Below are positions 2,130 to 5,588 of a stretch of 9,459 bases of DNA, piece after piece (position 1 is the stretch's first letter; each line of letters begins with the position of its first letter). Below the pieces are notes generated by a model. The model had not been told where the DNA came from and searched no databases. It worked only from the letters and a program-made list of their open reading frames with translations. Position numbers and translations under genes: made by a program. The stretch is from an uncultured bacterium (GTDB lineage Bacteria > Calescibacteriota > Calescibacteriia > Calescibacteriales > Calescibacteriaceae). Where the stretch lies: the NCBI GenBank assembly GCA_938036315.1, contig CALHPK010000029.1, positions 1-9,459 on the forward strand, given 5' to 3'.

Positions 2130-5100
2130 ATGTCGGTTGGATTATCATTATTAACTTTTACTATAATTTTAGGGTTTTCTCCTGAGACATCGTTTGTTTC
2201 GAAGACTGGGGATCAAAAGAGGGTTTCTGTGACAGCATTTGGAGGAAGGTTTATAGCGGTAGCAGAAGATTCAAACTGCGGTAAGCCAGAAAAACACATA
2301 TGCTTTTATAGTGGAGGAAGCGAGGAGCTGGCCGATGATTCGCCCGTATCAACAGCATATCCAGGAGTAAGTGTTGATTCTTCAGGAAATATATATCTGG
2401 TTTACTCAGCAGCTCGAGAGAAAGATCCAGAAACTAACACAATATCATGGGATATATACTTTAGAAAAAAGTCAGGGAATATATGGTCTGTGTCAAAGAG
2501 AATAAATTCAACAAGACCGGACGATCAGTGTAAACTTGCAGGAGATCAAATAAGACCCAGCATAGCGGTGACAAGTTCCGGTATTTATGTGGTTTGGCAG
2601 AGTATTGAGTCAACCGGAAGAAGTTTCATATGCTTTACTTATTCGCCGGATTTCGGCATAACATGGAGTCGTAATAAAAGGCTTTTTGAGGGATATACTC
2701 CTTCGATAGCAGTTTCTGGATCAGAGATCTACATAGTGTTTTCAGATATAAACTCTAATGTTCTTTTCGCAAGATCAGAAGATGGCGGGAATACTTTCAC
2801 AGTCAGAGCTGAACCTATTTTTACTGCATCAGGAAGAATCCCTGATCTGGCTTACCCATCCATAGCAATAACTCCTTCAGGTGTTCTAATAGCTGTCTGG
2901 CAAGCTAAAGCCATAAAGGGCTTTTCATCTGATATAGATATATTCATCTCAATGTCAAAAAACAAAGGTCAATCGTGGAGTTCTCCGAGAAATTTAGACT
3001 TACCCGGGGATCAGGTTAACCCATCGGTTGTGTTTTCAGGAGGTATATTCGTCTTTTATTCTACCATAAAATCTGTTCAGCTCGGGCATGATATATACTA
3101 TGTTGAATCAAGAGGAAGCGTGGTTGCTTCGGTAGGGGAGAATTCTCCAGTAGGGATATTAAGTGTAGCTTCGGGCTCAGAAAACATAACCGTCTTTCAG
3201 ATGAAGCTCACAGCCACGGAAGATATAGGATTCTGTGAGGTCAAAACAATAAAAGTCAGGGCTATCGGAACTATGAATGATCCTCAGGATATCATAAAAG
3301 TTCGGGCTTACCTTGATTCTGATATGGATGGGGTGGTCTCTCCTGCAGATACACTTATTGGTGAAGGAGTGTTTGCCGAGGATGACGGCTATGCCATATT
3401 GCCTGTGAACTTAACCTTATCGACTGAGCCGAGATATGTTATAGTTACAGTAACTCTGTCAAAGCCAATCCCAAGAGGGAAAACTTTTAACCTTCAAATA
3501 AATCCTCCTTCGGATATTCTGGCATATGCTGAAGGAACAGGAGTGGGGGTTCCTGTTGAAGGTTCCGTAATTTCTGGAAGACAAATCTCAATATCAAATA
3601 ATTTACCTGTTGCGGTTGCGAGCGCTAATCCTTCATCTGTTCTTGAAAACTCAGGTGTGGAAGTTCTTCTGGATGCTTCCAACTCCTATGATCCGGATGG
3701 AGATCAGATTTTATTTACGTGGCAACAGCTCTCGGGTCCTCCAGTTTCACTTGTGGGATCTGGATCTCAAGTCAAATTTACTGCTCCGTCATCTGTTACT
3801 CGAAATGAAAATTTAGTTTTCAGAGTTACGGTTTCAGATTCTTTCGGAGGTAGCGCAACAACTCAGGTTTCGGTCCTTGTCATTGATACTTTGAATGAAC
3901 CACCAGTGGCTGTCCCACGGATCAGGATTGCAGGGAATCTCTTCGCAGGACCGGTTGATCTTGAGGAAGGTACTGTAGTTGTTCTGGATGCATCGGAGAG
4001 CTATGATCCAAATGGTGATAAGTTGTTCTACTTTTGGAATCAGGTTGGTGGGACCTATGTCAATTTGGTGAATCCAGCTGGAGTAACCTCATATTTTGTA
4101 GCTCCCCCCGTCATCTGTGCTCAGTCGGAGACTTTGACATTTAATCTATCTGTGAGAGATCAAAAAGGTGCTGTTTCATCTTCAAGCATTACAGTAAGGA
4201 TTCTTAATACTCGGAATGATCCTCCAAGTGCTAAATTCGTACCGACTCCTAACATCGGTCAAGCTCCACTGCAAGTTACTTTCGATGCTGGAGCTTCTTA
4301 TGATTGTGACGGGAATATAATAAGCTATGCTTGGGACTTTGGAGATGGAACCCAGATTACAACATCGAACCCTGTTGTTGTTCATAACTTTTACACCCCG
4401 GGTGAATACCTAGTTAAGCTTAGGGTTCTCGACAATAGCGGGAACTTTTCGGAGTTTCTGACTCCGGTTACGGTCTTAGCATCGGTACCTACTTTATTTA
4501 TTTTTCCGGTAAAGTTGACAGATGAGTTGTCATATGGTGTTTTTCGTAATGTGGTCAAAATCAGATTTACAAATATCTCTGCCGAGACTATAGTTATCAA
4601 TTCAGTGAAGCTTGATTTAGCTGGAGTTCCGGATGCAGATTTTGAGATCTTACTTGATGTAAATTCTGATGGTATAGGAGATTTCAGTTTGTACTCCTTT
4701 TCTCTTAAGGGATCTTCTGGGAGTTTTGTTATACCTTTGAATCTGACACTGCAGGGTGGTAAGGCTTCTGATGTTATAATAAGGTTGAAACCTTTACCTA
4801 TTTCTGATATACCTGTAAATTACTCTTTAGTCTTATCTTCTGTTAATGCAAGAAGTTCTTTTTCAGGAGTTGATGTAGTTTTGGTCGGAGCTTCCCTTCC
4901 GTGGAGTTCTGAATTTTCTCTGAAAAAGTCAGCCTTAATATTCTTGACTCCATCTACTTTTGCTGTTTTGAGAGGAGGTGGAGTTATACCATTTTCGGTA
5001 GATGTTATAGGACTTGGGGCTTCATTTACTATAAATTCTCTCCAACTTTCATATGATCCAACAAAGATAGAAAGGGTAAGTGTTTTTGAGGACTCAAATT

Positions 5101-5588
5101 CCAATGGAAATTATGATGCTGGTGAAAGAATTTTGGCGGATTTGAGAGGAGAGCAGGTTTTTTCTCTAAATTTAGCAATTGAGAAAAGCGGGAGAAAAAG
5201 GATTGGATTTCTGGCATATCCTTCTGCATCTACAGGAGGTTCTTCACAATCTGCAGGAAACCTTTCAAGCCTTGCACTTGCCAGCGGGGCAGTTGTTTTG
5301 GTTGCATTTCTGATACCAGTGTTCAGAAGAAAAGAGATTTTTATAATTTCTGCTTTAGTCTTTATTATTATTGGATCGTGCGCAAACAAACCCGGGACAG
5401 GGAAGATTCCAGAAAAAGAGTTTCCAGGTGGTATGACTCAGTATCCCACTGATCTGACTCAGCAGATACCGACCGAGCTTCAATTTATGAAGACTACTGT
5501 ATTTTACATAACAGGTGCATCTGTTGTCTCTTCCTCTCCATCATTTGAAGTAATAGGGTTACCTCTTCAGGTTCAGCTGTTCTACTGA
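2130..5588 (+). CDS. large exported protein: Asp-box repeats, PKD/Ig-like domains, C-terminal anchor
   Basis: A 1152-residue surface or secreted protein of unknown function. Residues 1-18 are a hydrophobic signal-like segment with no basic n-region. Asp-box motifs (S-x-D-x-G-x-T-W) occur at 172-179, 216-223 and 276-283, with a degenerate one near 112-119, suggesting a BNR/sialidase-like beta-propeller; no sialidase FRIP motif is seen. An EF-hand-like loop, DSDMDGVVSPAD, lies at 396-407, with similar loops at 843-851 and 988-999. Three PKD/cadherin-like domains follow at about 493-588, 592-697 and 700-785; the last has the canonical WDFGDG at 735-740. A Ser/Gly linker, a membrane helix (1045-1065) and RRK (1066-1068) form a sorting-type anchor, but the frame continues into a second hydrophobic segment and Cys1084. 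The domains suggest adhesion or glycan binding, which is inference. ATG 2130 is the first possible start in this frame and has no close Shine-Dalgarno sequence; a frameshift near 2119-2122 may hide the true N-terminus. Confidence 0.85.
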   Translation: MSVGLSLLTFTIILGFSPETSFVSKTGDQKRVSVTAFGGRFIAVAEDSNCGKPEKHICFYSGGSEELADDSPVSTAYPGVSVDSSGNIYLVYSAAREKDPETNTISWDIYFRKKSGNIWSVSKRINSTRPDDQCKLAGDQIRPSIAVTSSGIYVVWQSIESTGRSFICFTYSPDFGITWSRNKRLFEGYTPSIAVSGSEIYIVFSDINSNVLFARSEDGGNTFTVRAEPIFTASGRIPDLAYPSIAITPSGVLIAVWQAKAIKGFSSDIDIFISMSKNKGQSWSSPRNLDLPGDQVNPSVVFSGGIFVFYSTIKSVQLGHDIYYVESRGSVVASVGENSPVGILSVASGSENITVFQMKLTATEDIGFCEVKTIKVRAIGTMNDPQDIIKVRAYLDSDMDGVVSPADTLIGEGVFAEDDGYAILPVNLTLSTEPRYVIVTVTLSKPIPRGKTFNLQINPPSDILAYAEGTGVGVPVEGSVISGRQISISNNLPVAVASANPSSVLENSGVEVLLDASNSYDPDGDQILFTWQQLSGPPVSLVGSGSQVKFTAPSSVTRNENLVFRVTVSDSFGGSATTQVSVLVIDTLNEPPVAVPRIRIAGNLFAGPVDLEEGTVVVLDASESYDPNGDKLFYFWNQVGGTYVNLVNPAGVTSYFVAPPVICAQSETLTFNLSVRDQKGAVSSSSITVRILNTRNDPPSAKFVPTPNIGQAPLQVTFDAGASYDCDGNIISYAWDFGDGTQITTSNPVVVHNFYTPGEYLVKLRVLDNSGNFSEFLTPVTVLASVPTLFIFPVKLTDELSYGVFRNVVKIRFTNISAETIVINSVKLDLAGVPDADFEILLDVNSDGIGDFSLYSFSLKGSSGSFVIPLNLTLQGGKASDVIIRLKPLPISDIPVNYSLVLSSVNARSSFSGVDVVLVGASLPWSSEFSLKKSALIFLTPSTFAVLRGGGVIPFSVDVIGLGASFTINSLQLSYDPTKIERVSVFEDSNSNGNYDAGERILADLRGEQVFSLNLAIEKSGRKRIGFLAYPSASTGGSSQSAGNLSSLALASGAVVLVAFLIPVFRRKEIFIISALVFIIIGSCANKPGTGKIPEKEFPGGMTQYPTDLTQQIPTELQFMKTTVFYITGASVVSSSPSFEVIGLPLQVQLFY
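5319..5588 (+). other. possible internal lipoprotein gene in frame with the surface protein
   Basis: From an in-frame GTG at 5319, the tail of the surface protein reads as a stand-alone 89-residue lipoprotein: n-region FRRKE, hydrophobic IFIISALVFII, then the lipobox IGSC with the cysteine at residue 1084 of the long frame, followed by ANKPGTGK and about 60 polar residues. No Shine-Dalgarno sequence precedes the GTG, so separate translation is unproven. It may instead be the relic of a neighbouring lipoprotein gene fused to the anchor, or a membrane hairpin. Confidence 0.3.

Follow-up and report, generated by a model that had tools for sequence, protein, structure and literature searches.

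The window, a 9,459-nucleotide stretch of DNA from an uncultured bacterium, encodes a protein of 1152 amino acids that carries, near its C-terminus, a segment which may work like a lipoprotein signal. The explanation that we consider best, and whose chance of being right we put at about even, is that Lgt lipidates Cys1084, that LspA cuts before it and that a split β-sandwich keeps the two chains joined. The ORF, at 2130-5588 (+) and in a single open frame throughout, would be translated into one polypeptide, and its N-terminal Sec signal would export three parts: sialidase-like propeller, PKD/Ig stalk and, next to the membrane, a β-sandwich (domain C). The last loop of this domain would hold an insertion of about 87 residues, folded as a membrane hairpin: the first helix (TM1) would run out-to-in, a basic turn would lie in the cytoplasm and the second helix (TM2) would run in-to-out in the style of a prolipoprotein signal peptide, i.e. 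in the direction needed by Lgt and LspA. Lgt would diacylate Cys1084 and LspA would then cut before it; the last strands (residues 1122-1152), borne on a flexible tether, would fold back and finish domain C. The mature product would be made of two chains, one of residues 18-1083, anchored by its two helices, and one of 69 residues whose N-terminal Cys bears the lipid, both held together by the split domain C. The topology, the lipidation, the cleavage and the non-covalent holding of the chains are what we infer, and the completion of domain C by the tail is what the structural models predict. The explanation supposes that Lgt and LspA can act on a signal preceded by another helix.

The layout of the protein is given in Table 1. 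Its overall build recalls a stalked binding protein of the surface or the periplasm. Judged from the model, its N-terminal part has the six-bladed propeller fold of sialidases (VIA-align Z 24-27; about 280-300 residues aligned, mostly with rmsd 3.1-3.9), preceded by a probable signal peptidase I site after F16-S17. Domains A and C have a D-x-[DN]-x-[DN]-G region in common (hhalign), and the front of domain C contains an invariant D-x-N-x-N-x-x-x-D loop (D60, N62, N64 and D68 in the numbering of A4). The source genome amounts to 1.87 Mb. Elsewhere in the window, at 1223-2074, FolB (dihydroneopterin aldolase) and FolK (HPPK) domains are joined in a single ORF.

Table 1. Features of the 1152-residue protein (window coordinates) and, in the last line, loci of the Lgt-like proteins discussed in the text
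Feature	Residues	Position	Strand	Evidence or remark
N-terminal Sec signal peptide	1-17	2130..2180	+	hydrophobic peak; M1, F16, S17 and E19 invariant in five orthologs
Sialidase-like (BNR/Asp-box) β-propeller	18-327	2181..3110	+	BNR_2 match just under the Pfam cut-off; VIA-align Z about 27 versus sialidases
β-rich domain A	328-489	3111..3596	+	AlphaFold2 strands; hhalign
PKD/Ig-like stalk domains	about 490-785	3597..4484	+	K319L-like_PKD, PKD_4, PKD
β-rich domain B	786-929	4485..4916	+	ten strands in AlphaFold2 model
Front part of split β-sandwich C	930-1034	4917..5231	+	pLDDT mostly 76-95
TM1	1048-1065	5271..5324	+	hydropathy peak in 5/5 orthologs
Basic turn RRK	1066-1068	5325..5333	+	basic residues in 5/5 orthologs
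TM2, putative internal type II (lipoprotein) signal, then Cys1084	1070-1083, 1084	5337..5381	+	invariant Cys; hinge profile; matrix rank 1 of 1180
Disordered tether, begins ANKPG, rich in Pro/Gln/Glu	1085-1121	5382..5492	+	pLDDT below 50; A-N-K-x-G invariant
Tail strands, predicted to complete β-sandwich C	1122-1152	5493..5585	+	pLDDT 78-93; structural alignments reach model residue 224; dN/dS 0.17 (whole post-Cys tail)
Lgt-like loci		L115:539-2161, L116:1187-2779, L117:1161-2771, L118:1065-2675, L119:998-2625		fused in four genomes, split in G002 (L119)

The original prediction had listed a Ser/Gly linker, a membrane helix, an RRK ending at residue 1068 and an IGSC lipobox-like signal, all of which are present as described. 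The linker occupies about 1035-1047, ahead of TM1, and I1081-G-S-C1084 closes TM2, with a TGC codon at 5379-5381 for Cys1084. Helices and signal were judged by hydropathy and by a lineage-specific position matrix. From the positive-inside rule the basic turn would be cytoplasmic. A basic n-region followed by a hydrophobic helix is found in each of the five orthologs, and the idea that RRK acts both as stop-transfer for the first helix and as n-region of the second signal fits the basic loop of all five. The window protein extends 84 residues beyond the basic turn, and the orthologs likewise continue past it.

The orthologs were compared among five genomes of the phylum, the window genome included. 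Each has a full-length copy, the other four being 47-49% identical to that of the window, and all end alike, with a hydrophobic helix, a turn of basic residues and a further hydrophobic helix, then C-A-N-K-[PA]-G, a Pro/Gln/Glu-rich linker and, last, a strand-rich conserved end. The C-A-N-K-x-G stretch, Cys included, is invariant amid a poorly conserved, fast-changing region. The Ser/Gly linker is not conserved, the basic turn varies (RRK, RRK, KVKRQ, KVKRQ, MRKEN) and so do the letters ahead of the Cys (IGSC, LLTC, NITC, NITC, EFSC). Because the pre-Cys letters and the exact RRK vary, only the Cys and the following residues are fixed. Homologues conserving the whole 1152-residue form with no lipobox Cys had been named as evidence against a lipoprotein signal; the whole form is conserved, yet the Cys is conserved too. 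Between the two closest orthologs, L008 and L009, dN/dS is 0.17 over the tail and 0.29 over the hinge, the latter a rough ratio because synonymous sites are few (31.8). The gene neighbours mostly differ between genera, and the protein is therefore conserved on its own. Outside the phylum, only PKD and propeller pieces were matched among 36 other genomes, and scans of genome contigs and viral contigs gave no relatives.

The hinge was compared with the lipoprotein signals of the lineage itself. When a profile of hinge plus tail was run against the five genomes, the better matches after the orthologs were mostly ordinary N-terminal lipoprotein signals, among them LAAGCADEPG, FSLRCAGEPG, LYRCAQEPT, IFSCAKKP and LIGCAKKA. 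A sample of 415 ORFs in about 536 kb yielded 20 candidate N-terminal lipoprotein signals. Many residues are tolerated ahead of their Cys (at -1 there are S, G, T, K, L and others), which means that the pre-Cys letters of the orthologs are not disqualifying; behind the Cys, Ala is the most frequent. Among the lipoproteins of the lineage, three small ones (L063, L064 and L065) have Gln-rich tethers and a C-x-x-C-H haem-binding motif, and two of the three have an Arg directly before the lipobox Cys.

A position matrix was built from 19 of the lineage's N-terminal signals, the hinge family being left out, and set against a background of 1180 sampled internal cysteines. The hinge Cys ranked first for the window and for L007, third for L010 and ninth for L008 and L009; the scores of L008, L009 and L010 (4.5, 4.5 and 10.6), which have N or E at -3, overlap those of the best chance positions. 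The training list was hand-picked, which inflates the scores of the training proteins and leaves the comparison with internal cysteines unaffected. The matrix is also strict, as L119, which is probably a genuine lipoprotein and was not used for training, scores only 1.4. A looser scan of the same 415 ORFs for a helix, a Cys and a polar tail away from the N-terminus returned only the hinge family and two soluble-looking, enzyme-like proteins. The first rank of the window Cys and the invariant C-A-N-K-x-G mark the observed pattern as more than chance. Compared with the textbook lipobox [LV][ASTVI][GAS]C (PMC8689077), the window I-G-S-C fits at -1 and differs at -3 and -2, and the LLTC, NITC and EFSC of the orthologs stray further, so that the motif is suggestive and not conclusive. 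The putative signal occupies residues 1066-1084 in a single conserved frame and is not at an N-terminus; given this internal position, what we propose is that it works like an ordinary lipoprotein signal, not that it is one. Each of Lgt, LspA, Lnt, LolA and Omp85 is found in 5/5 genomes, from which we conclude that these bacteria are diderms with the full pathway.

In the structural models the last 31 residues, overlooked in the original prediction, seem to form the closing part of the domain before them. For the full-length protein the AlphaFold2 model was of modest quality (mean pLDDT 68, pTM 0.36), with pLDDT 73-81 for residues 1121-1150 and disorder (pLDDT below 50) over 1034-1120. In a second AlphaFold2 model, restricted to residues 929-1152 (224 residues), values were mostly 76-95 for the front of domain C, 78-93 for the tail and mostly below 50 for the membrane and tether part. 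Three short strands that are confident after a long disordered linker are presumably packed on something. All 50 structural matches listed stop within the tail, 47 of them at the last residue, and the alignments cover up to 133 residues, which exceeds the roughly 105 ordered residues that the domain C front has by itself. This placement is consistent across the structural matches, and the tail most likely provides the last strands of domain C, the basis of this claim being AlphaFold2 models built on five sequences, together with Z values of middling size. Examples are the cohesin 6kgf_A (Z 8.3, rmsd 3.0, 121 of 143 residues) and the CLIPPER domain 9ifr (Z 8.6, rmsd 3.3, 117 of 123 residues); over the cohesin and CLIPPER comparisons, Z was 8.2-8.6 for 117-131 aligned residues, near the values given by common β-sandwiches, and, with Z values of 8-9 being no more than middling, we give the fold its name tentatively. 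No sequence match of domain C to solved structures was detected.

Two further ideas about the tail were set aside. A first hhalign comparison gave encouraging signs that the tail is homologous in sequence to the closing strands of domains A and B, but shuffled and decoy controls did equally well, and in a profile Smith-Waterman scan against the last strands of the sister domains the tail scored below shuffled tails; as the controls equal the real tail, this homology is not claimed. CLIPPER domains appear in an isopeptide survey (PMC12617251). An isopeptide bond holding the tail was discarded, there being no invariant Lys, Asn or Asp in its folded part.

A parallel and independent case is offered by a second, Lgt-like protein encoded in each of the five genomes. 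In four of them this paralog has 531-541 residues and carries an extra hydrophobic helix and an invariant Cys leading into a Cys-rich periplasmic domain of about 250 residues; the contexts of the internal Cys are SSCSGKNKKN, INCSQNDKKN, VRCSDKKSN and VMCSDKKSN. In the fifth genome, G002, the halves are two genes overlapping at the stop codon, one for a 265-residue Lgt-like protein and one for a 278-residue protein that begins MRTKKKTTNKKIAILMILLTLTQNC, an N-terminal lipoprotein-type signal. Against the fused form, the G002 halves gave BLASTP E values of 1e-75 and 9e-39, and the Cys residues align. Judged from these alignments, an internal helix-Cys in one genome is the counterpart of an N-terminal lipoprotein-type signal in another. 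The C-terminus of E. coli Lgt is cytoplasmic, hence the added helix would run in-to-out, as a lipoprotein signal needs. The case makes internal lipoprotein signals in the phylum more likely and does not by itself prove processing. The paralog may be another lipidating enzyme, paired with a lipoprotein of its own.

The same hinge could also be a plain two-pass inner-membrane anchor, in which the hairpin is inserted in domain C, the tail completes the domain and Cys1084 stays free of lipid and uncut; were Lgt and LspA not to act, a free Cys would be left at the outer face of the inner membrane. Such an anchor would explain the pair of helices, the basic turn and the folded tail with no need of processing, and the lack of conservation before the Cys agrees with it. 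What it leaves unexplained is why conservation in a fast-changing region peaks at C-A-N-K-x-G, why the hinge resembles the N-terminal signals of the lineage's lipoproteins, why a disordered tether stands behind the Cys and why the Lgt-like protein offers a parallel. We regard such an anchor as the main rival, and as rather unlikely, though well within reach.

In a second alternative, the protein would be a two-product polyprotein: after lipidation and cleavage the tail would leave domain C as a small lipoprotein, bound for example for the outer membrane, and the long chain would stay in the inner membrane. The motif evidence for it is identical to that for the nicked and retained domain, LolA is present in all five genomes and the Lgt-like case shows such a pair both fused and separate. 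The tail, however, has only 31 ordered residues, with strands predicted to belong to domain C, and a search with the hinge and tail profile found no stand-alone version of the tail in the five genomes, the remaining matches sharing the signal part. The release of the tail is, in our opinion, distinctly improbable, and a stand-alone tail lipoprotein as the source of a gene fusion, one of the options first considered, was rejected. A polypeptide cut into two membrane-attached products, also among those options, is the best supported of them, though unproven; its weak side is the tail as a lipoprotein of its own, given that it likely completes domain C.

The third option, internal initiation near codon 1064 giving an extra small lipoprotein beside the long protein, started from the GTG at 5319 in the window, which is codon 1064 as had been stated, and an ATG or GTG is also present near the hinge in L008, L009 and L010. 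L007, however, has no ATG, GTG or TTG before the second helix, its sole GTG being inside the helix and after the basic residues; the sisters L008 and L009 differ at the candidate ATG, which in L008 reads ACG; and upstream of GTG 5319 there is nothing like a Shine-Dalgarno sequence. From these codons and the missing ribosome-binding site it follows that a separate internal-start lipoprotein is not the conserved explanation, and we give it very little credence. Finally, an assembly or sequencing error joining two genes, for instance one hiding a stop near 5330, is refuted, as is a recent or chance fusion: five genomes share the full-length frame, dN/dS indicates purifying selection and nothing was found in favour of an artefact.

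Known systems share some of these traits. In the Bradyrhizobium cytochrome b/c1 precursor (fbcH), signal peptidase I cuts at an internal signal peptide and two membrane proteins result. This precursor is alike in that one bacterial polypeptide with an internal signal peptide gives two membrane products, and differs by the use of signal peptidase I, the absence of lipid and the independence of its two proteins, where Lgt, LspA and a split domain are proposed for the window protein. Bacterial lipoproteins, the substrates of Lgt and LspA, are alike in their basic residues, hydrophobic helix, invariant Cys, polar tether, folded part and pathway genes; their signal is N-terminal, whereas here it stands behind another transmembrane helix and is loose in its pre-Cys letters. 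The CLIPPER domain (PDB 9ifr) and the cohesins (6kgf, 4dh2) may share a fold with domain C plus tail, judged from structural alignment, but are continuous domains, and no sequence relationship to domain C was detected. In RTX adhesins a ligand-binding domain emerges from a split domain (PMC12077191); the likeness is an insert interrupting a domain of an adhesin-like protein, the insert here being a membrane hairpin with a lipobox-like motif.

MYXO-CTERM tags consist of a C-terminal helix followed by basic residues and are Cys-dependent and predicted to be lipidated (PMC11980579). These traits are the likeness; here the protein continues past the basic residues and the Cys comes after the second helix, whereas theirs precedes the first. 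The window protein does not carry a C-terminal sorting tag of this type, and no CTERM model matches it. Two giant proteins of 2087 and 1958 aa, at L052:11343-17603 (-) and L053:8883-14756 (-), have an N-terminal lipobox and a C-terminal GCSS-helix-basic tail that resembles MYXO-CTERM-like tags with no match to an NCBIfam CTERM model. There is also one match per genome (L110-L114, 5/5) to CPBP/Rce1-like intramembrane proteases (PF02517), the family of myxosortase; these could serve C-terminal tags of the L052/L053 type.

An exact-term search of the open-access literature found no report of an internal lipobox, which, given that scope and those terms, is weak evidence of absence. Lipoprotein signals are described as N-terminal, so that internal ones are easily missed by annotation. 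Since sister genomes have the Lgt-like gene both fused and as separate halves, the idea of an internal signal lends itself to direct testing in a laboratory strain. If it is true, the lipoprotein machinery would cut and lipidate in the middle of a protein and a split domain would hold the pieces. To conclude, we tentatively suggest, at somewhat less than even confidence, a new mode of anchoring in which a hairpin with an internal type II signal sits in a loop of the membrane-proximal domain, lipoprotein processing nicks and lipidates the protein, and the split β-sandwich retains the lipidated C-terminal chain; the stalk would be anchored twice in the inner membrane, or linked to the outer membrane if the lipid is passed to Lol, and, in view of the Lgt-like case, internal signals may be a general habit of the phylum.
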